23,027 bases of DNA, from IMG/VR virus record IMGVR_UViG_3300033144_003040, positions 1-23,027 of that record. The stretch is one strand, 5' to 3'. Each line of letters starts with the position of its first letter. Positions within the stretch are counted from its first letter, which is position 1. This DNA is from a virus. The notes under the pieces were generated by a model that worked only from the letters and a program-made list of their open reading frames with translations, did not search any database and was not told where the DNA came from. This document shows, piece by piece, positions 5,998 through 22,935 of this stretch. The translations under genes and the position numbers were made by a program.

Positions 5998-6315
5998 TTA
6001 TTCCTCCACTACCATAAAGTTGTCAATAACTACATTAGTCCAATAAACCTTAGAATAACCACTACAATGACGACATTTACCATCATACGAGCGCTCTTCT
6101 ATGTGTCCGTGTACTTTAATAAAAGTATCTTTAGGTAGCTCTGCTATAGCCTCAGCTGTGGCTCCCCAGGCAGCTACCTTGACGTACTGATGCTTGCCAT
6201 TTCCTGTAGGAATAGCCAATTTAGCGTTAAGTAGGCTGTTATTGTTCATACCTACCGTTTTTAGGTTAGGATACTGTATTTTCCCTGTTAAACTTACAAA
6301 GTTTTCGCCGATCAT
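5998..6315 (-). CDS. ssb: single-stranded DNA-binding protein (OB-fold), short
   Basis: Looks like a minimal SSB: NFVSLTGKI (strand 1), SLLNAKLAIP (28-36), HQYVKVAAWGATAEAIAEL (42-60) and DTFIKVHGHIEERSY (63-77) follow the order of the bacterial SSB OB-fold. It would coat ssDNA made by the helicase and RecA reactions. At 105 residues it has only the OB domain; the usual linker and acidic, Phe-terminated C-terminal tip that recruits partners is absent (it ends VVEE). A CRHC pair (81-84) is inserted in the loop before the last strands, possibly a metal site. The ATG overlaps the HNH gene stop as ATGA, with AGGAG upstream. Confidence 0.72.
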   Translation of the reverse strand: MIGENFVSLTGKIQYPNLKTVGMNNNSLLNAKLAIPTGNGKHQYVKVAAWGATAEAIAELPKDTFIKVHGHIEERSYDGKCRHCSGYSKVYWTNVVIDNFMVVEE

Positions 6316-7181
6316 TTGCTATATCTCCTATACATTACCGCTTGATACCACGCTTCGTGCCATTCTCTATGTACATTAGCCCTAGCGTTACAAGAACCAC
6401 ATACGGTAATTAAATTATCCGGCCTACAATTTTTCTTATTATAATCTATATGATGAATGGTTAATCTATTTGTTGTTTTCCAACAATCTGGATTTATACA
6501 CACATAACCATCACGCTCTTTTATTGATTCCTTATATTCCTTATCCGCCCAGGCATCGCAGTAAGGAGCACACGAAATGCCGCCCTTCCAACTAGAATTT
6601 CCAGGGCCAGTATTATTTATTACCCAACATACACCACACCGAGCATGTCTATGATACCAACTATTCCATGTAACACTACTTATGTGGTTCTCAGGGCATC
6701 TATATTTTAATTTTATATTATCACGTATGTAATTATCAGTCAGAAGTGTGTAATTTTCAGCTTCAAATGAGGCTCTAATATCATCTATATTTAACCTTCT
6801 ATTGTTAGCTATTCTCACCCGGGCACAATATAAACATCTACATCCCGCTTTCCAATCATCCCAGGTAATAGTGTGCTCGTGCCCAACTGGACATATATAT
6901 TTTAATCTTTGGCGGCTATTTTTATAAACTTCAGTAATCAATTTATAGCCTTCTTTTATAAACTCAGATCTCACAAACTCTACAGTCAATTTAGCTATAT
7001 GGGAACAATGGGGACATCTACATCCCTGTGACCAATTACCCCACGATACAGCATGCTCATGTTCATTAGGACAAGCATATTTTATTTTTGTATCGGCATT
7101 TACATAATTTTCAGACAGCACTTTAAACCCCTCCTCTCCAAACTGCTGCTTAATGAAATCCATTGTATGTCGCTTGGTCAT
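6312..7181 (-). CDS. HNH endonuclease with three tandem zinc modules (probable homing endonuclease)
   Basis: Residues 7-62, 66-122 and 131-187 are three copies of one ~60-residue module: a helix (FI..F..EGYK), a strand ending in KY.CP..HEH, a [ST]W..W segment and a closing C.C..C pair, so each looks like a zinc-binding DNA-recognition unit. The C-terminus (about 228-275) is an HNH nuclease: C228/C233, IHHIDYNKKN with the catalytic His pair, DNLITVC and a second pair C261/C264. This build of repeated DNA-binding modules plus HNH is typical of free-standing phage homing endonucleases. It sits between primase and ssb, overlapping them by 1 nt (TAATG) and 4 nt (ATGA). The ribosome site is weak (AGGCGGG at a long distance). 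A restriction-type or packaging role is less likely. Confidence 0.85.
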   Translation of the reverse strand: MTKRHTMDFIKQQFGEEGFKVLSENYVNADTKIKYACPNEHEHAVSWGNWSQGCRCPHCSHIAKLTVEFVRSEFIKEGYKLITEVYKNSRQRLKYICPVGHEHTITWDDWKAGCRCLYCARVRIANNRRLNIDDIRASFEAENYTLLTDNYIRDNIKLKYRCPENHISSVTWNSWYHRHARCGVCWVINNTGPGNSSWKGGISCAPYCDAWADKEYKESIKERDGYVCINPDCWKTTNRLTIHHIDYNKKNCRPDNLITVCGSCNARANVHREWHEAWYQAVMYRRYSK

Positions 7182-10947: not shown

Positions 10948-11023
10948 ATATCTCCGTTAATCCTACCATATCTATTACTCTGGCACGAATTTCATTGTAC
11001 ATCTTGGCGTTATCCTCTGCTTT
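10931..11023 (-). other. recA: RecA C-terminus continued in the -1 frame
   Basis: From codon 303 (AAG, 11022-11020) the recA frame gives 14 unrelated residues and stops at 10975. Reading one base back (AAA GCA GAG ...) gives AEDNAKMYNEIRARVIDMVG and nine more residues, stopping at a TAA at 10933-10931. That peptide looks like a normal amphipathic C-terminal helix of RecA and would make a protein of about 332 residues. Whether this is programmed slippage at CTTAAAG (11026-11020), a mutation or a one-base assembly error cannot be told here. Confidence 0.6.
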
Positions 11024-11928
11024 AAGCGCCAACAGGCACCTACCTTGTCGATAATACCAAGATCTATACCTAATTTTAGTATCTCCCAATAGGTGTCATA
11101 GCCCTTACCATATATCAAATTGATCTCTGTCTTCTTGAATGGTGGTGCTAATTTGTTCTTTACGATCTCAAACAGCGTAGTGTGGCCGATGATTTCACCA
11201 CTCATGGGGTCTGGTATCCGCCTTGCCTTAGCTTCGGGACCTCTGACAGATATCCTTCCGGTGGTATAAAACGCCAGCGCTTCGCCGCCGGTGGTTGTTT
11301 CAGGATTACCATATCCACCAATCTTCATTCTCAATTGGTTGATAAAGATAATTAAACAGCCGGCGCGATTAGCGATAGGGGTCAGTCGTCTTGTGGCTTT
11401 GCTCATTAGTCTAGCGAGGAGGGCGATATGATCGTCGCCTATCTCTGCAGCTGCCTCGTTGCTTGGTATCAAAGAGCTGACACTGTCCACAACTGCTATC
11501 TTATAAGCACTAGATGACACCAACATCTCTAAAACATCCAGATTCTCTTCACCATTATAACCCTGCACTAAGTCTAGGTTTTTGATATCTACACCATAAT
11601 TTTTGAACAACAGTGGGTCAACTGCATGCTCAGCGTCTACATAACAGCATTTCATTCCGCGTTTCTGGCCCTGTATTACGACATTGGCAGCGAGTGTAGA
11701 CTTGCCACCACTGTTGGGTCCAAAGATCTCATATAGACGGCCTAGTGCCATACCACCGCGGCCCAGGGCTACATCTAAACTGATAGAACCAGTAGATACT
11801 GTGGGAATTACCATGTCTTCATGATCACTAAGCTTGCTGATTACCTCACCATATTTCTTAGTGATTGCCTTCTTAATTATATCTAGATTGTCTGATTTAA
11901 TCTCAGGTCTTGCTTTCTTTTTTGCCAT
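10975..11928 (-). CDS. recA: RecA recombinase (annotated frame, 317 aa; true end probably at 10931)
   Basis: Polymerises on ssDNA and catalyses strand exchange with ATP. Landmarks: Walker A GPNSGGKS (70-77), DAEHAVD (98-104) with catalytic Glu100, Walker B IAVVDSVSSLIP (144-155), the loop INQLRMKIG (196-204) with the allosteric Gln198, loop L2 through PETTTGGEALAFY (209-221), and VKNKLAPPFK (256-265). The core is therefore intact. After GACWRLK (297-303) the frame departs from RecA, while the -1 frame continues it. The ATG has a strong GGAGG site and overlaps the 210-residue gene by 26 nt. It lies in the same gene series as the clamp, candidate mediator and three nuclease genes. Confidence 0.95.
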   Translation of the reverse strand: MAKKKARPEIKSDNLDIIKKAITKKYGEVISKLSDHEDMVIPTVSTGSISLDVALGRGGMALGRLYEIFGPNSGGKSTLAANVVIQGQKRGMKCCYVDAEHAVDPLLFKNYGVDIKNLDLVQGYNGEENLDVLEMLVSSSAYKIAVVDSVSSLIPSNEAAAEIGDDHIALLARLMSKATRRLTPIANRAGCLIIFINQLRMKIGGYGNPETTTGGEALAFYTTGRISVRGPEAKARRIPDPMSGEIIGHTTLFEIVKNKLAPPFKKTEINLIYGKGYDTYWEILKLGIDLGIIDKVGACWRLKQRITPRCTMKFVPE

Positions 11929-12535
11929 ATTGATCCTCCAATTTTTTTTGGCATGCTGCTAACTCCTCTAAAGAGTAGCCCATTGTATATTTTTTTTCGA
12001 TACGTTCAGTCATTTCGTCTACTGATTTTTCTGTTGCTGCTAATTTATCCTTAGTTATTTGATCGTTAATTATTCCTATTGCCCGTTCAGTTATCCATCC
12101 CATCTCTGCCTGTCCAAATATACCAAAAGTTGGTGGTGTTTCAAACTTAAACACGTCTGGAGTTCTAAAAACGGTCTTAACTATTAAAGCACACTGCTGC
12201 ATTGCATCGTAGCGACTAATCTTATCAGCCTCCATGCGTTTTTCAATGAATGCCTTGGCAGTTGCCCGGTCTCTCTTTTTATTAGAAGATGGAAGTAGAT
12301 GCTTTTCGTATGAATTATTCAGATCACTATAGAACGTGGAGATTATTTCATCCAATTTAGTTATCTTTACAGGATAACTCATTGGTGGTCGAACACCATA
12401 ACCTTGTCCCTTTAAAAATTTGACACACACCTCGGTTGACTTATCAGTGAATATCTTCTTATTACCAAACAAGTCTCCCTGTTGGGATGCCGTTAGTAAT
12501 CTTTGCATCTCACCCAAAAACTTATCAAAATCCAT
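11903..12535 (-). CDS. hypothetical protein between sliding clamp and RecA, 210 aa
   Basis: Not recognised. It is predominantly helical and charged, with a more ordered, aromatic/proline-containing middle (PPTFGIFGQAEMGWITERA, about 138-156) and a C-terminal coiled-coil-like part (about 160-205) rich in K and E. No Walker motif or catalytic signature was seen. The ATG overlaps the clamp stop as TAATG with CAGGAGAAGG as ribosome site, and its end overlaps recA by 26 nt. Being locked between the clamp and recombinase genes suggests an accessory role at the fork, such as a loader, or a clamp- or recombinase-binding factor; this is an inference from position alone. Confidence 0.65.
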   Translation of the reverse strand: MDFDKFLGEMQRLLTASQQGDLFGNKKIFTDKSTEVCVKFLKGQGYGVRPPMSYPVKITKLDEIISTFYSDLNNSYEKHLLPSSNKKRDRATAKAFIEKRMEADKISRYDAMQQCALIVKTVFRTPDVFKFETPPTFGIFGQAEMGWITERAIGIINDQITKDKLAATEKSVDEMTERIEKKYTMGYSLEELAACQKKLEDQYGKKESKT

Positions 12536-13668
12536 TACCTTCTCCTGACCGGTGTAATCAGTGCTGATTGATCCATAAAGTTGCCGGAATCAAAGACTAG
12601 AACTCCATCGTCGTCGGAGAATTTTATCATGATCTTGTCATCTTTAATAACTTCTATGGTCTGAATCATGTATTGTCCGTTGACATCTATAATAAATTCA
12701 CCAGGAAAATCCACCTGGCCATCATAAGTGAACTCAGCCACATCGCAACTCAATATCATTTTACCTTTAGATAAGGAGAAAGTGAGGCGATAGTTGTCAT
12801 CTGGGTTCAAAATGTCAGCAAATGGTAGGAGACTACTCATTAGAACCTCTTTATCTAATATGATAGAGTCCTCAGCTGAACCTAAGATGGTTTTATAGTC
12901 TGGGAATTCATGTCCTATGATTGTCTGGCCCCAAAAGATCACACCATCGAAAGCCGCCTTGACACTACGATCATCAAACTCAAACGCTAATTGATTCTCT
13001 GCATCGACAACTCTACGCAGTCCCATGATGAAATCGTACCGTAAAAGGAACATGCCCTCGTCTAGATCACTGATGTTTTTGACTTTATATTCAGAAAGTC
13101 TCTGGCCATCAGTGCCTACGAAGCATATTTCATCCTTGGTAAACACCACATTCATTCCTTGTAGAAATGCACGTGTGTCTGACGGATTTATAGCGTATAG
13201 CACCTTGCTGGTTGCCGTCCTAAAAATATTTGAATTCAGCACAAAGTTAGGTTTACTAAACTTTTTAGGTTCACGTATCGTATAAACGTCGTAAACCTTT
13301 AGTTTCAGGTTTCCCTTAGAAATCTTGCTGTTCTCATGGGTATTTACAACGGAAACGTTAAGAAAATTGTTGGTGAGATCAAAATGAAAATCCTTTACGC
13401 CGTCTTTATCATTCCAGACATGGAACGACGACACAAAGGACTTGACTTTGCCGTATTCTATTACGGCCGCGCCGGGCACCTTAACCTCTGCTTTGTTGGA
13501 GGTAAAGGATAGCGCTGTGGAACCATTGTTCGATAAGAATGTAATAATACCATCTTCGGCTGCTGTTATAAGTACCATACCAGTTGAATCTAAGACGTTT
13601 ACCTTGGCGGTAACGCTCAGCAACTTGATGGCCTTCTGCAGGTCACCAGTCTCAATAGAAAAATCCAT
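12535..13668 (-). CDS. dnaN: DNA polymerase III beta-like sliding clamp
   Basis: Ring-forming processivity factor. At 377 residues it has the three-domain size of bacterial DnaN. Clear family segments are AINPSDTRAFLQGMNVVF (159-176), ICFVGTDGQRLSEY (181-194) and EFPDYKTIL (254-262), all in the second and third domains. The C-terminus (ALITPVRRR) stands where cellular clamps end in a P-M-R type sequence. It is the first gene after the twin promoters; AAAGGA lies 8 nt before the ATG, and the 5' leader would be about 54 nt. No polymerase or clamp loader is in the window, so the partner polymerase lies elsewhere or comes from the host. Confidence 0.9.
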   Translation of the reverse strand: MDFSIETGDLQKAIKLLSVTAKVNVLDSTGMVLITAAEDGIITFLSNNGSTALSFTSNKAEVKVPGAAVIEYGKVKSFVSSFHVWNDKDGVKDFHFDLTNNFLNVSVVNTHENSKISKGNLKLKVYDVYTIREPKKFSKPNFVLNSNIFRTATSKVLYAINPSDTRAFLQGMNVVFTKDEICFVGTDGQRLSEYKVKNISDLDEGMFLLRYDFIMGLRRVVDAENQLAFEFDDRSVKAAFDGVIFWGQTIIGHEFPDYKTILGSAEDSIILDKEVLMSSLLPFADILNPDDNYRLTFSLSKGKMILSCDVAEFTYDGQVDFPGEFIIDVNGQYMIQTIEVIKDDKIMIKFSDDDGVLVFDSGNFMDQSALITPVRRR

Positions 13669-13822: not shown

Positions 13823-15787
13823 TTAAAATTCTAAATATCCTACTCCATCATCTGTATATCCAATCACAACGTCAAACGAATGTTCTGTCTCTCCTACTAT
13901 ATCTGAGGTTAGATTATTACTGGTTGAATAGTATCTTGTGGCTCCAATTCTAGCCGATATATTATTTATTGCCATAGGTGCTATTGAATTTATATATGCT
14001 CCCAAGTTCTGTACTGGCTGTGTAGTTACGTACCATATTGCATAGCGCATTGCTTCATCTACATCATCAAAATGACGCATGTCGTATAAATATTTAACCT
14101 TGTGCAATCCCCTGTCTAACCTCCGACTGGTCGCTGGTGAATAATATGATGCAACTTTAGTTACAAAGTGTGTATATCTGTCTACCTTCGCGACAACATC
14201 ACTCCCTGAACTATAAAAGTAATCCTTGACTATGGTCTCGAATGATATATCGACGTCTTCATAGTCTGACAAAACCTGTGTGTATGTGGTGTCGTACACG
14301 CGCTCTTTGCCCTTCCATGTCTCAAAGTCATAAGGCTGTACGTCTATTGCATTTATATAAGCCGGAAGGTCTCTTGGGTGTCTTTGCGGAGTAATACTCG
14401 CTCCCAAACTCAGGCCGGCGCGGAAAACTGACAGGCTAACAGCGAATTTATCTTCTGTTCTAAAACCTATCGCGGCTATACTTATATTAATAGGTAACTT
14501 ATCCTGTACTGTTGTGTTTAAAGCATAACCAAACGATGCTCCAAGGTTTCCCTGTGCCCAGGCAAAATTCTTCGGATAAATGTATGCACCCAGATTGGCC
14601 TGAAATACCGGACGTATAAAGGAAGCCAAATCTCTGAAATCTGAATAGAAACATGGTATACTAATCGTTGCTGATAAGTTTCTGTTCTCCATTGTAACCA
14701 CTGAAAGTATACCTGTCAGGCGCATTCTCTTTGGATAAATTTCAGCAGTAAGATTTTTTAAGTCCTTTCCGGGATCGATGTAGGCTGTTAGGTTCCTTGC
14801 CTGTTGGATTGCCAGTGACGCTGGAAGATTCCCTATTCCCTGAGTTACTAAAATAAAAGCGGCAAGATTTCCATGTGGTGGTAATAAATTAGAAATAATA
14901 TTGGCCGATAGATCTTTAGTTTTCCAAGGACTTGCAAAAATAGAAGCTGTCAAATTCCATGGATAGGCTGCTGGATACAATACAGCCGAAAGGTCTTTAG
15001 TGTCCCAACCATATATAAAAGCGGTCATATCCCGCGGTACTACTGGAAATAAATATGCTGGCAGTTGAGCCATAGAAGTGGCACGGATGAATGCATTCAA
15101 ATCATCTATATCATATGAATGTACGAATGCTCCTAGATCATATGTTGCTTCCCTAACCCACCCCTTAATCAATGCTCTTATACTTCTGGGGCGGTGAGTA
15201 CCGATAATAGCAGGTAGGTTTCCAAGCCCGCCTGGTAATATATAGGCACTTAAATCTTTAGTGTCCCAACCATAAATAAACCCAGGTAGATCTCTCTGCG
15301 GCCATGGTTTTATATACCCACTTAAATCTTCTGGTAGATGTCCGCCTATCTCAGCTGGGAGGTGAGCAGAGAACAAGACACGTATAGAAGCTGGTAGTTC
15401 CCTGTAGTCAAACCCCCGTATATAGGCAGATAGATTCTCTGGATCATGCTTGTCTATAATGCCGCCAAGGTTGCCAGGTAAATGGCCGCCTATTATGCCG
15501 CCTAAATCCACTTCCTGTGTGGCAAAATCACCTATAATTTCAGCTTGCAAATTAGCATAGACCACACCACCTATCCAAGCTGGTAGATCTCCGGGGTAAT
15601 GGCCGCCGGCGCTAACACCTAGATCTCTAATACCACCATAATGGCACTTACCTTTAATTATCTGAACACCATGGGTACTGTAACCAACTATATAGTGTTC
15701 ACAATATTTAAGAAAGGTAAATGTTTCATTGTGAAATGGCTGTAGTAAATTTATTTGTGCCTGTATTTCAGCAGACCACGCGGGCAT
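13823..15787 (-). CDS. virion-type protein built of ~30 tandem 12-residue repeats, 654 aa
   Basis: I do not recognise this family. From residue 67 to about 480 the protein repeats [DN]-L-x-[AG]-x-[IL]-x-[GP]-x4. The anchor Leu (Ile once) falls at 107, 119, 131, 143, 155, 167, 179, 191 and 203, exactly 12 apart, then at 218, 230, 242, 254 and 266; later copies drift to 11-16. Examples are NLSAYI, DLPGFI and DLSAYI. One 10-residue string, IYGWDTKDLS, occurs twice. Single copies reappear at 595, 610 and 626 after a non-repeat segment (about 485-590) with charged and aromatic residues. A regular 12-residue period suggests a narrow beta-solenoid, possibly a fibre shaft. No signal peptide. AAGGAG precedes the ATG. 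It is the last gene of the structural set. Confidence 0.82.
   Translation of the reverse strand: MPAWSAEIQAQINLLQPFHNETFTFLKYCEHYIVGYSTHGVQIIKGKCHYGGIRDLGVSAGGHYPGDLPAWIGGVVYANLQAEIIGDFATQEVDLGGIIGGHLPGNLGGIIDKHDPENLSAYIRGFDYRELPASIRVLFSAHLPAEIGGHLPEDLSGYIKPWPQRDLPGFIYGWDTKDLSAYILPGGLGNLPAIIGTHRPRSIRALIKGWVREATYDLGAFVHSYDIDDLNAFIRATSMAQLPAYLFPVVPRDMTAFIYGWDTKDLSAVLYPAAYPWNLTASIFASPWKTKDLSANIISNLLPPHGNLAAFILVTQGIGNLPASLAIQQARNLTAYIDPGKDLKNLTAEIYPKRMRLTGILSVVTMENRNLSATISIPCFYSDFRDLASFIRPVFQANLGAYIYPKNFAWAQGNLGASFGYALNTTVQDKLPINISIAAIGFRTEDKFAVSLSVFRAGLSLGASITPQRHPRDLPAYINAIDVQPYDFETWKGKERVYDTTYTQVLSDYEDVDISFETIVKDYFYSSGSDVVAKVDRYTHFVTKVASYYSPATSRRLDRGLHKVKYLYDMRHFDDVDEAMRYAIWYVTTQPVQNLGAYINSIAPMAINNISARIGATRYYSTSNNLTSDIVGETEHSFDVVIGYTDDGVGYLEF
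14348..15589 (-). repeat. 12-residue (36-nt period) coding repeat array
   Basis: About 30 degenerate copies in one reading frame, each around [DN]-L-[PSTG]-[AG]-x-I. At DNA level most copies have diverged, but two near-identical stretches about 260 nt apart (around 14995-15020 and 15258-15283), both encoding IYGWDTKDLS, indicate recent duplication or recombination. The start is residue 67, the end residue 480. Confidence 0.85.
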
Positions 15788-15796
15788 AAGTTCTCC

Positions 15797-16144
15797 TTAT
15801 GGGGTATCTACATTTAAATCTACTGTGTCAGTATTGGTTAACGTCTCTTCTCCACGGCCTCCATATGTCTGGGTATAATGGTCGTACAAATTTTTGCTGC
15901 TTAAATCTAAAACAGATAACGCTGTTCCTGGTCCCCATGACAGGGTGTACATCTTCCCATTCTCTCGGCTGGCGTCAGAGTCTGCCCATATAGCCGTGAA
16001 TATATTTGAAAAACCAGCCAATACATAAAAAACAGCTAGAGCAAAATCGAAGTCTGCGTCGAGCGGTGGTCTGGGTGTATACCCAGCCAAATCAAAATTA
16101 AAATCAGCATCATCCGCTACCGGCGGTACATATTGATCGGCCAT
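15797..16144 (-). CDS. small virion-associated protein with duplicated D-F-x-F motif, 115 aa
   Basis: The N-terminal third repeats a short unit twice: PPVADDADFNFDLAGY and PPLDADFDFALAVFY, i.e. P-P, a few residues, then D-A-D-F-x-F. I have seen this type of Pro/Asp/Phe repeat in phage structural proteins, often next to tail or fibre genes; that is memory, not a search. The rest (about 45-115) is polar with many T, S, D and N. AGGAGG lies directly before the ATG, and it is 9 nt after the 1165-residue gene and 10 nt before the repeat-protein gene. Likely a small partner or tip component of the same assembly; no enzymatic motif. Confidence 0.65.
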   Translation of the reverse strand: MADQYVPPVADDADFNFDLAGYTPRPPLDADFDFALAVFYVLAGFSNIFTAIWADSDASRENGKMYTLSWGPGTALSVLDLSSKNLYDHYTQTYGGRGEETLTNTDTVDLNVDTP

Positions 16145-16152
16145 TTTTCCTC

Positions 16153-19100
16153 CTATATTGGATAAGGTTCCATCTTACCTAGTATCAAGTCATTATAATC
16201 TATTGGTGGATCATCGTCTCTACATATTATGTAATGGGCACCGCTATATGTAGTTTCCAAGTGATATAAGCCAGTTCCGCTGGCGGAGACAGTAGAATCC
16301 ATCAATTCATGCGTATCAGCCCTAAAACAAGCCACATCTCTTATTATAGGTACACCTTTCTCAGTAACATTACCTTCAAAGTAGTGGGTTTTATATGCCG
16401 GCCACTGTACCCATTGAAACCATCCATATGTAGTTCCCCCTTTATCATATCTGCTACAGGTTATGGTGCTATCATCTGTAAGCTCGAATCTTACATTTGC
16501 AGATCCTACATCGTTAGCGCCGGTAGCATCTACTCTGTTGATATCTCCCGCTATGGTGGGACAAACCATCGCCCTATCTAAATCAAGGGGTTGATCATTT
16601 ACTATGCTCTTAGTTTCTGATGTAGTACCTGTTGACATATCAGTCCAATAGCCGCCCACCTTAACACCTATTTTGGGGTTAAATTCAACCATTTCAAGGT
16701 GTCTATCAGTTATAGAATTACTATTAGTCTGCCTGTTCCATTGAAATCCGTGATCTGGTCTGGGAAATAATCTCAAACAAGCCCTATCGGGAAAATAATT
16801 GGTTACATCATTAGAGTAAGAACCTTGAACAAATCTATGTGTATTGCCACTGTCGGCATAATGAAAATTACCATAATCATAAAAATTAGTGCCTGTTTGG
16901 CTGCCAGTGTCTACACGTTTAACATACCATTGGTCTTGTAAGCACTCTACTAAATATACAGTCAACCAAACTGTGCCAGACGAACCATGGCGTCTAAATG
17001 TCAACAAGCTACTGGAAGTAAATTCTGCCGTTGTTAAAGCGTCGTTCCAATCATCCTGATAATTATCCACAGAGTAACCAAACCAAATGAAAGTTCTATT
17101 TGTTACAACCGGCACGGGTATAGTTATAGTGGCACTAGTTCCTGTCATATATTTAAAGAGTCTTTGTACCTTTACCTGTTCAGGATCAAATTCTACCAAG
17201 TATATAGTTTCATCTAAATTTCCGGTGCCGCTTTTGCTGCTGTCTGAATAGGATATTACCTTGGAGTTTACAGTATCAACATAGTGGTAGCGCATAATTC
17301 TTGTCATTTCACCGTCATCAGCGCTTACTCGCCAACTAGCAAACGGTACACAATTTTCTGGCCGTTGTCCCTTTGTCATATAATGCGCTATTATCCTACC
17401 AGCACCATTATATTCACGCTTTTCTATAGATCTTACCAAAGACATAGTGTCATTTAATCCTGTAGGTATATTATAATCCTCATCAGCTTCGGGGTTAGCA
17501 TACCCTAACCAGTTGACAGCACAACCATAAGAGCTATACAGAGTTATTCCTACTGTGGCCTCTCTTCTATTCTCTACTTGAGTGTTACTATTTATCAATT
17601 TATACGTATGAAAAACACCTCTCATATCATCAGATCCTGCGCCAGAGCCTCTACCAACATCGTTCTGCATGATATTAATCGCGGAAAGAGCATCTTCATG
17701 TCCGAGCCAGAGGGTAGTAACGTTGTGAGTAGATAGTGTGGTTGAAGTGTCAAAATTTACTGCCATTACTTGAGTACGATATCTCATATCCAAAAATCTT
17801 ACATTCTGTGAGGCAGCATACATAGTATCAGCTGATGTCTGTCTGTTGATCCTAGGAGCTCCGCCTGACCCATACGAATATGCTCTTGCTGTGCCTCTAG
17901 CCACATCATAACTATCATTAGATACAGCATATGACATTAAATACATACTGGAATAATACCAACCATAATTATCTGTGTACCACTCGTGCCCAGTGTCAGT
18001 AAATGAATTAGTATTATGAGTTACTCTAAAATTATCTCCTAGATCTTCTATCACATAATAATAACCAACTAAATTATTCCCAGCGTCATGTCTGTATAAT
18101 TCTATAGTATCTGTAGCTGTAAATCTGGCACGAATTGAGCTTCGGCTCCAGTACGTGGCTTCATTGCATTCCATACTATATAATATAAACGCTTTTGATG
18201 TGCCAGATACAGCAGATATAGTTGGTGTCGTGGTAGTTGTCGCCCACATGAGCCACTGGCCGCTTTGTACCCTAACTTGGTCTGGATAAAATTCTACTAC
18301 ACTTATCTCTGCTATACGAGACCCGCCGGCATCAGTGCAATGACCTACTAATACCCCAGGTTCCCTCAACCAGACTACAGCCTTGCTTTCTCTTATTTGA
18401 TTACCAGTACCACTTCCTCTAACTGATACAAACACAGCACAATTAGACACATCTTGGCCCTTACTTAGAACTATCATGTCCATATAAGCACCAATTGTCA
18501 TGGTAATATTCTCCACGGACTTGACAAAGGTGTGGTCTGGATTTAGAGGGCTTGGGTTAGTACCGGTATAGGGCGATGTTCCGGCCCAATCCACTACAGA
18601 ATAGGCTGTGTAACTTGCCTGGCCGCCGCCATCTGAATTTCTTTCGTATTGTATAGCTGTAGTGCTAGTAAGTTTTACAGACATCCACAAGGAATCTATT
18701 TGTGTTGTTGATGTTGTGTTGCCCCTACACTGTCCCATAGGCACTGTAACAATAGGACAGGAGGTGTTCAAACTACAAGGTAAATGTGTGCCCACGCTGC
18801 CCACTAGAGTAGGAGTTCCTACACCTAATTCTCTATTTTCTACCACATATACTTTGCTCTCATCAAGAAAAGTTATGAATTGCGTATTATACCATGTAGT
18901 GCCCCCTGCTGTATTCTTATCACACTGCCACAAACCAGCAAAATATGGCCAAATCCTAGCAGTCTGTCTATTATTCCACCCATCAGCTGCATTGTCAGAG
19001 TTAGTGTAAGACCCTATACAAATAGTCTTACTTAAATCAAAATAGCCTTGATTTGGATTAGACGGTGCCCTACGACTACTTGTTCCAGTGTAACTACTAT

Positions 19101-19650
19101 CCTGGTGATTAACGGCAAAATGATCATTCCCTGCGCTGATGTCCTCGAATAGAAAATAGTGACCTGTTACTGTTCCGCCGGTAAGGTATCTATACATATC
19201 TACCTGCGTACCATTTGATGATACCCGTCCCCTGACCATATGGATACCCCAGCGCCGTGTACCGGAAGAAGACCACCAATAGTGAACCATGGCCGTTTTG
19301 GTTTGTGTGAAACTTGACGGGGTGTTGTAAGTAGTAGTAGCTGCGGGCGGCAAAGCAGAAAAAGAGCCTTGTTGTACTTTAACTTCGGCAGGATCAAACT
19401 CCACAACATAGCATTTGATATACATACTACAACTACGAGTTTCATTACGTTGAAAATTAACAATACCAGAGGCCACAGTGCCACTAAACCACACATCCAT
19501 ACAGTGACTGTCCATATAGTCACTACAACCATGTAAAGTCATGAAAGGCACACAATCGTTGTAGTTCTGATTTTTAGTTAAGTTTATATTACTTGTAGTA
19601 CCAGTCTGTGTTATTTCCACAAACTCAACTGATTTTACCATTGATGCCAT
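16153..19650 (-). CDS. large structural protein with three ~365-residue repeats, 1165 aa
   Basis: Three long repeats are anchored by K/R-S-V/I-E (residues 6-9, 377-380, 740-743), [ND]C.[PV]F (32, 403, 767), VEF.P..V.VQ (83-93, 452-462, 819-829) and NRQT (227, 602, 972). Each repeat seems to contain about four ~90-residue beta-rich modules, giving perhaps a dozen in all. The C-terminus (about 1090-1165) differs: FEGNVTEKGVPIIRDV, then AHYIICRDDD and YNDLILGKMEP, a small beta-sandwich like the carboxypeptidase-regulatory-type domains at the end of phage tail proteins. Rich in W, Y, S, T and N and poor in K, as in secreted or virion beta proteins. AAGGGG lies 8 nt before the ATG. Probable tail or baseplate-associated decoration or adhesin; exact role unknown. 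Confidence 0.78.
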   Translation of the reverse strand: MASMVKSVEFVEITQTGTTSNINLTKNQNYNDCVPFMTLHGCSDYMDSHCMDVWFSGTVASGIVNFQRNETRSCSMYIKCYVVEFDPAEVKVQQGSFSALPPAATTTYNTPSSFTQTKTAMVHYWWSSSGTRRWGIHMVRGRVSSNGTQVDMYRYLTGGTVTGHYFLFEDISAGNDHFAVNHQDSSYTGTSSRRAPSNPNQGYFDLSKTICIGSYTNSDNAADGWNNRQTARIWPYFAGLWQCDKNTAGGTTWYNTQFITFLDESKVYVVENRELGVGTPTLVGSVGTHLPCSLNTSCPIVTVPMGQCRGNTTSTTQIDSLWMSVKLTSTTAIQYERNSDGGGQASYTAYSVVDWAGTSPYTGTNPSPLNPDHTFVKSVENITMTIGAYMDMIVLSKGQDVSNCAVFVSVRGSGTGNQIRESKAVVWLREPGVLVGHCTDAGGSRIAEISVVEFYPDQVRVQSGQWLMWATTTTTPTISAVSGTSKAFILYSMECNEATYWSRSSIRARFTATDTIELYRHDAGNNLVGYYYVIEDLGDNFRVTHNTNSFTDTGHEWYTDNYGWYYSSMYLMSYAVSNDSYDVARGTARAYSYGSGGAPRINRQTSADTMYAASQNVRFLDMRYRTQVMAVNFDTSTTLSTHNVTTLWLGHEDALSAINIMQNDVGRGSGAGSDDMRGVFHTYKLINSNTQVENRREATVGITLYSSYGCAVNWLGYANPEADEDYNIPTGLNDTMSLVRSIEKREYNGAGRIIAHYMTKGQRPENCVPFASWRVSADDGEMTRIMRYHYVDTVNSKVISYSDSSKSGTGNLDETIYLVEFDPEQVKVQRLFKYMTGTSATITIPVPVVTNRTFIWFGYSVDNYQDDWNDALTTAEFTSSSLLTFRRHGSSGTVWLTVYLVECLQDQWYVKRVDTGSQTGTNFYDYGNFHYADSGNTHRFVQGSYSNDVTNYFPDRACLRLFPRPDHGFQWNRQTNSNSITDRHLEMVEFNPKIGVKVGGYWTDMSTGTTSETKSIVNDQPLDLDRAMVCPTIAGDINRVDATGANDVGSANVRFELTDDSTITCSRYDKGGTTYGWFQWVQWPAYKTHYFEGNVTEKGVPIIRDVACFRADTHELMDSTVSASGTGLYHLETTYSGAHYIICRDDDPPIDYNDLILGKMEPYPI

Positions 19651-19662
19651 AATGAATACCCC

Positions 19663-20418
19663 TTATGCTGTATAGTAGGTGTCTCCCTCGTCTAGTTCTT
19701 CGTCTATAACGAAGATACCACTTGTGGTGGCCACGAATATAGTGTTAGCTGCTCCTGTATCTGATGTTCCCTCTGTTACAAATATGTCAAGTATATCTGT
19801 TCCTGGGTTAATGAGAAACGTTCCTGTTTCATAGAACTTATCTGGGTCCGTCCAATTACTGCCTGTTGCATTCTTTTTATTTATCTTCCAGGTTCTTCCA
19901 TCCCATGTTACATAGTACATTGTGCCAGAGGCAGTTATGAATACTTTTCTGGCTAATTTTGTGGCCGTGCTGGCAACCTGGGCCGTGCTTCTATAATTAA
20001 CACCAGAAGCAGTGCTAATTAACATGTGGCCATTGTTACCATGTATATATCTTACTTGATCTGATAGTATATCTGGCTCGTTTAGATAATCTGTTAGGCA
20101 CACTGACAGTTCATATGGGCTAATTGTACTGCCACTTATACAGGTCTTCTCAATGTACTTGATGCCACTGGCCGGCGTAGCCAAATAAACTCCGCTGACA
20201 CTGGCCCAAACAGAAGTAAAACCATCCGCGTAGGTTATATGTGCGTACGCTAGTTCAGACTCAAAGTCTATTATGTTTAGACCGTCAGTAGTGGCTGCGT
20301 ACACATAGGTACGATCAGTCCATATCTGCTTAAGCAGATAGAATGGATCTGGCTGTACTGTCCATTCTTGGTCAGCGTACTCTATCCATTGATCATTATT
20401 TTGGCCCGTCCAGCCCAT
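19663..20418 (-). CDS. beta-propeller-like virion protein, 251 aa
   Basis: Five similar short units can be seen, each with strands ending in a small-x-G-[ILV] turn: YVYAATTDGLNIID (38-51), VYLATPASGIKYIE (77-90), HMLISTASGVNYRS (131-144), MYYVTWDGRTWKIN (167-180) and IFVATTSGIFVIDE (227-240). This resembles blades of a beta-propeller, common in phage fibre- or tail-associated proteins as a binding or scaffold domain. No catalytic residues could be picked out. The ATG directly abuts the stop of the 838-residue fibre gene (TAAATG) with GAGGGG upstream, so the two are likely translated in step and probably belong to the same structure. Confidence 0.62.
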   Translation of the reverse strand: MGWTGQNNDQWIEYADQEWTVQPDPFYLLKQIWTDRTYVYAATTDGLNIIDFESELAYAHITYADGFTSVWASVSGVYLATPASGIKYIEKTCISGSTISPYELSVCLTDYLNEPDILSDQVRYIHGNNGHMLISTASGVNYRSTAQVASTATKLARKVFITASGTMYYVTWDGRTWKINKKNATGSNWTDPDKFYETGTFLINPGTDILDIFVTEGTSDTGAANTIFVATTSGIFVIDEELDEGDTYYTA

Positions 20419-22935
20419 TTAAGCCCCTCGTTTCCAAAATTCTGCTACTGTATAAATTTCAGGTGAATCTCCTGGAAAAATATCACTATTACCATTACCA
20501 AATCCATTATCAACTCGTGTAGTCTGGCAGGCGTGCTGTACTTCTAAACTCTCAACACCACTAATTGTAATTTGCCCACGTATAGTAGAAAAATTAGACA
20601 CAGAGTCTGCTAATGCCGATCTCTCAGGAGTACCATACATAATTACCCCAGAAGTGGTAGCATTGTATAATCTAGCTTTGTGGTGATCTATTCTGTACGC
20701 AGGAGCTGTTATACGGTATGTATAAATTCCCGGCTCCAATACTATTTGGTTACTTAATAAGCTACACGTATTGTCATCATCATAATTTATAGTATTAAGA
20801 TCTCTAGTTTGCCAGGCGCCGGAAGTAAATGTCCCTCCCTCTGTGGCAGAAGATTTAACATCGGACATCATACAATACGAAGATGTACCACTCCCAGATA
20901 CAGTAGTCCATTCTACACCAGAGGTGGTGGAGATTAGATATTTACCCTCATCATATGTGGCTGGGGTGTCTGTCAGTCCAGAGAATGTAGTAGATCCTAC
21001 ATCATATATGGGTAGAGATATGTTTGTTCTTTTGTATACCCTAATATAACCAGTCATATTTTGTAGCGTGAAAAATCTCATACTAGTTACTTCATCCGCA
21101 GTATTAGTCCAATATGACGAAGTTAATGTATTTGTAGCATCAGCAGCATCTACCTCTGTTCTGGTGTCTATATCCATCATTGATCTAGTATTACCAGATT
21201 TCAGACGTAACGACGCTGTTCCCGTACTATTTCTGGTGGTATGTGGTCGACCAAACTGCAAAGCATTTGAAGATGTTTCCTTGACACCATCAGCCTGATC
21301 ATTTATCTGGAATAGATAACTGTAATAATAATTCCCGCCGGTACTATCTTCATTTAGTTGAATCCATACCGAGTCTGAAGCAGCGGCGTAAGACATGTTG
21401 TATCTAATTTCCCACTCATCATCGGTGTTGCCTTGTATACCAGAGAATGTAACATCAAGGGTTTCGTTATTTAGGTTATATTCCGCTACTAGCTCAAGAG
21501 CTTCATAATCTGTGGCCACCCACGTGCCTGAAAAAGTAGGTGTTTCTATAGTAGTCCACTCTACACCAGAGGTGGTGGAGATTAGATATTTACCGTCATC
21601 ATAAGTAGCAGGGGTGTCTGTTAAGTCTAGTAAGGATTGTTCATGTGCTATGATTGTCTGCCAATCACCGCCTAGTAAAGTCAACATTTCAACCTCTGTT
21701 ATGGCGGTAGCTGGGTGCCCATTACCTACAGTTATATTTATTTTATGATATAAAAATGGTTGTACATTATCATTTATAGTCCATTCATGCCAAGTAGCTG
21801 ACCAGGAAGTATAATTAGTTACCGTCAATAAAACAGTTTCTTCACCTAAAAAGGCTCCGGTATTAGAACCCTGAAGCTGGAAAGTTTTTGCCGCCTGCTC
21901 AAAACTATCGGGTCTTGGATATATCCTTAATCTATTAACTACAACCGGAGAAGTGAATTGATATTTTAACCAATGAGGAAAAGAACTATTCTCGGTACCC
22001 CACATGGTTGCAAGTGAGTCATCAAATGCTTTGCTGGGGGTCCAATCAGACCATTGAGAATTTCCTCCTGTTGCCGTGCCGCCAGTACAGAGGTCTGTAC
22101 TATATGTGTAACCACTCTCCGCCGTTCTTTTATACACATCTTCATTATCTTCATCGATATAGAAATCTCCGGACTTTCCTAGTGCGCCGGGTGGTGCCCC
22201 ATTACCTGAATACATAATCCCATCTACAGACAGCAACTGATCATTCAAATAAATATACCCTCCATCAGTTGTTAATCGTGTATTTCCTATATATACGGTG
22301 CCTTCCGAGGTGTAGATATCATTACAATGAATATCTCCTGTGCCTGATATAGTGCCCGAACCAAAGTCCCATGGTACATAAGCAACGTGGCTGTGGTCAT
22401 CGGTGCCGGAGGTAGGCACAACAGCAAACTCAGTGCCGGATGCTGTAGCATTTACTCTAAGAAACAATCCTTCCGATCCTGAATATGTCACGGGAGTATC
22501 TGTCAACTCTAGAAATGAAGTGGCCGCTTCTGTAAATTCAATACCGGATGCTGTGGAATCTACTCTTAAAAATAACCCCTCTGTCCCTGAATATGTTGTA
22601 GGAGTATCGGGAAGAGATAAAAATGTTAAACCTAAACTAGCGCCATCTAACACGCCGCCCTGACCCTCTACACCTCCCTCATGTGTATGGTCTGGGAAAC
22701 TGCCCGTTTCTCCGGTCTGTGTAACACCATAAAGAGCTGAGGTGAGTGACGCAGTGAGATCTGATTCATCTATAACTACTGTGGTATACGGAGAAGAATA
22801 TGAAGATGATACAACTGAGGCGTACTTTATACCATCCAAACCACAATCTAACTTCACTCTTCTGCTGGCGTTAAACTCCGCGGTCCTATCGTCTAGAACT
22901 TTGAAGCTGTTACCACTTATATATATAGCATCCAT
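20419..22935 (-). CDS. tail fibre/receptor-binding-type protein with F5/8C-like and C1q-like domains, 838 aa
   Basis: The N-terminus (RRVKLDCGLDG, SSSYSSPYTTVVI, 25-55) is of a type I associate with phage fibres. DTP linkers (L.DTP.TY ... G.E[FW]) lie at 108-135, 143-171, 437-463 and 653-679. NGAPPGALGKSGDFYID (245-261) is a typical fibre linker. Residues about 281-418 look like a discoidin/F5/8 type C carbohydrate-binding module (SKAFDDSLATMWGT, WLKYQFTSPVVVNRLRIYP, AITEVEML). Residues about 465-640 form another beta-rich domain, and the last ~150 (SGAWQTRDLNT, LEPGIYTYRITAPAY, YTVAEFWK) resemble a C1q/TNF-like trimeric head. HTH and HSH motifs (83-85, 181-183) could bind metal. It probably binds host surface sugars. 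AAGGGAG precedes the ATG. Confidence 0.82.
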   Translation of the reverse strand: MDAIYISGNSFKVLDDRTAEFNASRRVKLDCGLDGIKYASVVSSSYSSPYTTVVIDESDLTASLTSALYGVTQTGETGSFPDHTHEGGVEGQGGVLDGASLGLTFLSLPDTPTTYSGTEGLFLRVDSTASGIEFTEAATSFLELTDTPVTYSGSEGLFLRVNATASGTEFAVVPTSGTDDHSHVAYVPWDFGSGTISGTGDIHCNDIYTSEGTVYIGNTRLTTDGGYIYLNDQLLSVDGIMYSGNGAPPGALGKSGDFYIDEDNEDVYKRTAESGYTYSTDLCTGGTATGGNSQWSDWTPSKAFDDSLATMWGTENSSFPHWLKYQFTSPVVVNRLRIYPRPDSFEQAAKTFQLQGSNTGAFLGEETVLLTVTNYTSWSATWHEWTINDNVQPFLYHKINITVGNGHPATAITEVEMLTLLGGDWQTIIAHEQSLLDLTDTPATYDDGKYLISTTSGVEWTTIETPTFSGTWVATDYEALELVAEYNLNNETLDVTFSGIQGNTDDEWEIRYNMSYAAASDSVWIQLNEDSTGGNYYYSYLFQINDQADGVKETSSNALQFGRPHTTRNSTGTASLRLKSGNTRSMMDIDTRTEVDAADATNTLTSSYWTNTADEVTSMRFFTLQNMTGYIRVYKRTNISLPIYDVGSTTFSGLTDTPATYDEGKYLISTTSGVEWTTVSGSGTSSYCMMSDVKSSATEGGTFTSGAWQTRDLNTINYDDDNTCSLLSNQIVLEPGIYTYRITAPAYRIDHHKARLYNATTSGVIMYGTPERSALADSVSNFSTIRGQITISGVESLEVQHACQTTRVDNGFGNGNSDIFPGDSPEIYTVAEFWKRGA
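20902..20975 (-). repeat. direct DNA repeat, copy A (DTP linker 4)
   Basis: About 74 bases almost identical to 21550-21623, with only a few scattered differences. Both encode the same linker, DTPATYD-[DE]-GKYLISTTSGVEW, in the fibre gene. They flank the central beta-rich domain, so recombination between them would delete or exchange it. Confidence 0.85.
21550..21623 (-). repeat. direct DNA repeat, copy B (DTP linker 3)
   Basis: Partner of the copy at 20902-20975; same reading frame and near-identical sequence. The other two DTP linkers of this gene (about 22423-22509 and 22531-22614) form a second, adjacent pair with GLFLRV and TASG in common. Confidence 0.85.

Follow-up and report, generated by a model that had tools for sequence, protein, structure and literature searches.

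A family of 12-residue repeat proteins encoded at the end of the tail fibre gene cassette in uncultivated phages

The window analysed here, a whole 23,027-nt stretch of viral DNA (an IMG/VR record), encodes on its minus strand a 654-residue protein (open reading frame at 13823-15787) that is built largely of 12-residue units. Recurrence of these units exceeds chance, and the gene belongs to a family with a conserved place at the end of a tail fibre gene block. The protein is probably an elongated, beta-rich component of the distal (host-contact) tail apparatus, forming the shaft of a fibre or of the tail tip, and we infer that it is present in the virion. The repeat array covers residues ~61-480 (14348-15607, minus strand). 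It is preceded by a non-repeat N-terminal part (residues 1-60; 15608-15787, minus strand) and followed by a C-terminal part (residues 485-654; 13823-14335, minus strand) containing the most conserved motifs of the family, YFY[SV][SN]G[ST][DE] and DEAxRxxIxxV; the conserved domain itself spans residues ~485-600. Full-length orthologues from two other contigs, L002 and L006, are 68% and 65% identical to the window protein. An earlier sequence-only reading had placed the repeat protein at 14348-15589, which describes the repeat part of a wider frame; it had overlooked the N-terminal and C-terminal non-repeat regions, a super-period of 48 residues and the existence of a family with the same neighbours.

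The strict motif x-L-x-[AG]-x-[IL] is found 28 times in the repeat protein and a relaxed version (I/L/M/V and V/F/M variants) 36 times, compared with a mean of 1.6 and a maximum of 7 strict matches in 2000 shuffled sequences. Both runs of regularly spaced anchors that had been reported were recovered, at residues 107, 119, 131, 143, 155, 167, 179, 191 and 203 and at residues 218, 230, 242, 254 and 266, with a spacing of exactly 12 residues within each run. Three of these anchors are slightly degenerate (SIRALI at 203, DLGAFV at 218 and DMTAFI at 254). Over residues 61-480, self-identity reaches 64 at a lag of 12 residues, versus 27 ± 5 after shuffling (maximum 49 in 5000 shuffles; z = 7.4), and is 53 at lags of both 24 and 36. 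The protein has no period of 5, 6 or 18 residues (17, 11 and 20 at these lags), and the values at lag 8 (29, near background) and lag 15 (24, not raised) are to be compared with ~27 expected by chance. The 115 exactly 12-spaced units of the whole family yield the consensus [DN]-L-[PGS]-[AG]-[YFI]-[ILV]-x-[GAS]-[FIVW]-x-[PAE]-[KR], with D or N at position 0 in 88% of them. Insertions are located between units, spacings of 12 residues being more frequent than spacings of 13, and these more frequent than spacings of 14.

Every fourth unit is alike in the window protein (permutation p = 0.0002), in L006 (p = 0.0024) and in L002 (0/5000 permutations), these three tests not being independent since the proteins are related. 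Counted from residue 68, window units 3, 7, 11 and 15 end in HLP, HLP, HRP and VVP, and units 4, 8, 12 and 16 contain HDP, PWP, GWV and GWD. Because of this resemblance, the structural or evolutionary unit in the clade of the window, L002 and L006 may be 48 residues long. The super-period is absent in the more distant L015 and L017, and the window protein displays no 24-residue alternation (lag-2 permutation p = 0.48).

Homologues were found on 17 other IMG/VR contigs of up to 296 kb, i.e. 18 contigs with the window, some of which are near-identical (L006/L007 and L011/L012). L002 was obtained by a direct scan, the remote homologues L003 (the same locus as L017) and L004 (the same locus as L008) by a degenerate repeat pattern, and the others by alignment scans; a further candidate from the viral pattern scan, L005, was rejected as a low-complexity frame. 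The most distant members share 24-30% identity with the window protein, and arrays of the L003/L017 type are less regular. The C-terminal patterns YFY..G.......D and DEA.R..I..V are nevertheless invariant (family alignment columns Y523, F524, Y525, G528, D536, D577, E578, A579, R581, I584 and V587). Repeat proteins of L006, L008 and L009 carry an additional N-terminal module, YxPP...GGY...FxF, that the window protein lacks. LamG domains (PF13385; 6e-30 and 1e-19) are present at the C-terminus of the 1226-aa L011/L012 version and of the L038 version. Most homologues have no recognisable receptor-binding domain.

The description of the repeat as unrecognised holds for all the resources that we searched. 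Sequence and profile searches of Pfam, PHROGs, NCBIfam and PDB gave no match to the repeat protein, and none of the Pfam and PHROGs families, known phage tail-fibre families included, was hit by the window protein at E 1. PLSDB gave no match, and an alignment scan of 84,980 bacterial and archaeal genomes detected no relative. When the same cellular genomes were scanned with the repeat pattern, the 10 matches were all simple-sequence expansions, such as DLSADISIDDS in Treponema. In INPHARED, tblastn returned two records of one Pseudomonas phage (E 0.9, 37% identity over 60 residues) that we judged to be a chance match, and queries with L003 or L004 returned none. With a repeat HMM, no convincing copy of the array was detected in other proteins of the examined phage loci, and no description of a 12-residue repeat of this kind was found in the literature. 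The family is therefore apparently confined to uncultivated virus contigs, although collections other than those searched, e.g. other metagenomes, may contain more members. Neither the repeat array nor the YFY...DEA domain matches a described fibre family. The family, previously unnamed and found in no isolate phage, stands out by the unusual shortness of its beta repeat, by units that are specific to their position and by its fixed synteny.

Gene order is fixed: the tape-measure gene, tail genes and genes for lectin-like fibres lead up to the repeat gene, and those for the sliding clamp, RecA and DnaB come after it. The repeat gene closes the tail/fibre cassette, and the sliding clamp gene comes directly after it in the window and in seven homologue loci whose context could be read (L002, L006, L011, L013, L015, L016 and L017); one extra gene (225-aa product) separates the two in L008. 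The clamp, DnaN (12535-13668, minus strand in the window; PF02767, 1e-11; phrog_947, 2e-25), opens the replication block and is followed by a protein of ~180-210 aa, RecA, an endonuclease-like protein of ~115-120 aa, DnaB, DnaG and SSB. On the other side of the repeat gene, the minus strand of the window encodes a 115-aa protein (15797-16144), a 1165-aa cassette protein that has no match in INPHARED (16153-19650), a 251-aa cassette protein (19663-20418) and an 838-aa tail fibre protein with a lectin-like F5/8 type C domain (20419-22935; PF00754, 4e-10; phrog_24210, 7e-18). The module found at the N-terminus of the L006, L008 and L009 repeat proteins is shared with adjacent cassette proteins, which likewise start with it; one of these is the window 115-aa protein, where it reads YxPP...GY...DF. 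F5/8 C, LamG, SPRY and DUF2341 domains, which are common in host-contact proteins, are encoded by the genes immediately preceding the repeat gene.

Two long contigs, G001 (296 kb, behind L015) and G002 (115 kb, behind L006), carry large tail genes on the same strand, tape measure included. The G001 tape measure is 4651 aa long (phrog_4211, 6e-81). At the corresponding place, G002 harbours at 79535-103780, on its minus strand (L022/L023), an uninterrupted open reading frame of 8081 aa, the last part of which matches tape-measure phrog_25241 (6e-8). As a general rule, tail length is about 0.15 nm per tape-measure residue, so that the tail would measure ~1.2 micrometres if this frame is indeed a tape measure. 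The synteny marks a group of uncultured phages, with contigs up to 296 kb, that possess very large tape-measure genes. The moraphage paper (PMC12619734) does not mention RecA or a sliding clamp, and moraphages were not identified as the lineage of the phages encoding the repeat protein.

Comparison of the window protein with L002 and L006 revealed pN/pS values of 0.32-0.39 in the repeats and of 0.19-0.26 in the C-terminal part, synonymous sites being near saturation; for the repeat protein as such the values are 0.25-0.39. Identity between orthologues is 0.88, 0.87 and 0.86 at unit positions 1, 3 and 5, versus 0.42-0.66 at other positions, a contrast that is partly selection bias, since in one of the two proteins the units were picked by means of the motif. 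Conservation of these three positions points to one beta strand per 12-mer, with its L, A and I residues buried. At the variable positions, identity between units that occupy equivalent places in different proteins is 25%, a figure somewhat favoured by the alignment itself, compared with 8% for units from different places and 9% for units within one protein; unit order is therefore constrained. Since each unit retains its own identity in distant relatives, the array is old and has not been slipping. Repeat copies have diverged at the DNA level, and the sole near-identical pair extends over 26 nt (96% identity), which likewise argues for an old array with no recent expansion.

These data bear on the possibility that the array is a low-complexity or expansion artefact devoid of structural meaning. 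Such motifs do occur in recent bacterial simple-sequence expansions, as mentioned above. Here, by contrast, the units differ from each other, are under purifying selection and keep a position-specific identity across distant relatives, and a single 26-nt stretch is all that remains near-identical in DNA; the position-specific identity and the pN/pS values refute this explanation, to which we attach practically no weight. It is unlikely that the protein acts outside the virion, for instance as an intracellular assembly chaperone or an early protein encoded at the boundary of two gene blocks. The repeat gene borders the replication block, and a position at the end of the structural block could also suit a non-virion gene. 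Against this, some homologues are fused to LamG domains and the N-terminal module of others is common to fibre-cassette proteins. A fibre role, as already suggested by the sequence-only reading, is supported in terms of genomic context by these LamG fusions and by the position of the gene, the last of the cassette, downstream of the tape measure and lectin-like genes. Its location in the tail/fibre cassette is that expected of a tail appendage, and its location at the end of the fibre gene block makes it probably part of the host-contact apparatus. Phage fibres and adhesins with LamG or F5/8 C domains are encoded in the same cassette, and LamG is even present on some homologues; the repeat and the C-terminal domain, however, are unlike those proteins.

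If the protein is indeed such a tail component, each 12-mer would contribute one short strand, L-x-A-x-I, whose L, A and I side chains point toward a core, and the turn after the strand would begin at the G/P and finish at the conserved D/N. About 25-30 strands would be stacked as a rod, docked to the tail by the N-terminal region. The conserved C-terminal domain could cap this rod or bind a partner, and the LamG extensions of some relatives would bind surface glycans, possibly as receptors. Structure prediction produced low-confidence models. AlphaFold2 gave a mean pLDDT of 31 for the whole repeat protein (14-sequence alignment) and of 39 for residues 105-278 (13 sequences), with block means of ~55 at most, over the first five units. 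The best part of the latter model displays one strand per 12-mer. No deeper pseudo-MSA could be gained from shifted-register repeat alignments because MAFFT tiles them in the natural register. Foldseek searches with the low-confidence model yielded no significant match (best E 3.4); the weak matches (E >= 3.4) are mostly beta-helices (CcmM/CcmN, LpxA and hexapeptide acyltransferases, MinC, tapirin and CAP). VIA-align gave three matches, all solenoid-like, with Z values of 3.0-3.7, in a range (below 4) that is uninformative; the structural matches amount to no more than a hint. The proposed beta-solenoid is thus not demonstrated: sequence and conservation fit one strand per 12-mer, but pLDDT values of 31 and 39 speak neither for a regular solenoid nor against it, and a homotrimeric beta-fibre is just as compatible.

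Among known solenoids, insect antifreeze proteins of the Tenebrio type have 12-residue coils, rich in Cys and Thr, with a disulphide core and a TxT ice face. The period is the same as the one observed here (lag-12 z = 7.4), and the composition differs, with a single Cys in residues 61-480 and no TxT in the consensus. Pentapeptide and hexapeptide solenoids share with our repeat the [DN]-L and L/I-x-small elements, and the non-significant Foldseek matches include hexapeptide helices. They differ from it in period, as neither the pentapeptide A(D/N)LXX (lag 5 = 17) nor the hexapeptide left-handed beta-helix (lag 6 = 11, lag 18 = 20) agrees with the data, and no Pfam match was obtained in either case. 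Fibre shafts of the adenovirus triple beta-spiral type, to which PMC4576200 refers, are also made of short beta repeats, of ~15 residues, whereas lag 15 is unraised in the present protein (24). Phage fibre shafts are commonly trimers. The C-terminal triple-stranded beta-helix of T4 gp5 is a trimer with an 8-residue repeat, VxGxxxxx, and an N/D ladder (PMC4576200). Like the repeat protein, gp5 is a phage tail protein with a short hydrophobic-x-small repeat and an N/D ladder position; it is unrelated in sequence, its repeat has 8 residues, and its trimeric state is established, whereas that of the repeat protein is only hypothesised.

We consider it about equally likely that the rod is a monomeric solenoid or a trimeric fibre, each being a serious candidate that falls somewhat short of an even chance. 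As a monomeric beta-solenoid, the protein would have one 12-residue coil per repeat and a D/N ladder at one corner, and the rod would measure ~30 x 0.48 nm = 14 nm. The equivalence of the units with no 24-residue alternation (64, 53 and 53 at lags 12, 24 and 36), the location of insertions between units, the D/N at position 0 in 88% of units and the mostly beta-helical or solenoid-like weak structural matches are compatible with such a coil. However, block pLDDT means do not exceed 55, the Foldseek matches are not significant, the VIA-align Z values lie in the uninformative range, and the 12-residue coil of insect antifreeze proteins depends on disulphides, residues 61-480 having a single Cys here. 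In a homotrimeric shaft (triple beta-helix, beta-prism or spiral), L-x-A-x-I strands would be arranged around a three-fold axis with A/G nearest to it. Such a shaft would follow the usual build of phage fibres and the gp5 trimer, whose motif is of the same kind; failure of single-chain prediction is expected of an obligate trimer, although the shallow alignment explains it too. The period of 12 rather than 8 residues (lag 8 near background) speaks against such a shaft. Antiparallel hairpins or a beta meander with alternating strands, making an extended sheet or a spiral platform instead of a shaft, seem improbable: a 6-residue strand and a 6-residue loop permit them, and the 48-residue super-repeat could be two hairpins, but the 24-residue periodicity is missing in the window protein. 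If the protein is a shaft, its repeat is a compact, disulphide-free building block whose fold escapes prediction by AlphaFold2 with alignments of the present depth. It is rather doubtful that the protein represents a new fold class, namely a disulphide-free beta rod with 12 residues per layer and 48-residue super-repeats, used as tail-tip shaft by uncultured large phages with very long tails.

Several additional features of the window were observed. The 26-nt near-identical pair corresponds to GWDTKDL units at 14994-15019 and 15255-15280 (96% identity); the matching two L006 units are both GWQEADL, an indication that units of the array have undergone gene conversion with each other. The 251-aa and 115-aa cassette proteins match two parts of a single 330-aa protein of L008 (7054-8046), the first part at 44% and the C-terminal part at 41% identity. 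A gene for a ~1170-aa protein lies between these two parts in the window (15797-20418) and in L006 (3222-7962), as if it had split an older gene of the 330-aa type. In L002 (15-3581), the ~1165-aa and 115-aa genes are fused into one frame. The 1165-aa protein of the window (16153-19650) seemingly consists of three similar modules of ~370 aa that start with MVKSVE, FVKSVE and LVRSIE. The 289-aa product of positions 6312-7181, encoded between the SSB and DnaG genes, has a C-terminus of HNH-like sequence (HHIDYN...CGSCN). As this site is empty in L002 and L006, the protein resembles a homing endonuclease whose gene was inserted. The window RecA (10975-11928) has 317 aa compared with 346 aa in L002, and its last residues are unrelated, suggesting a frameshift in the window, either real or due to an assembly error. 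Finally, the products of two neighbouring genes (222-2705), 379 and 443 aa long, are glycosyltransferase-like by eye.
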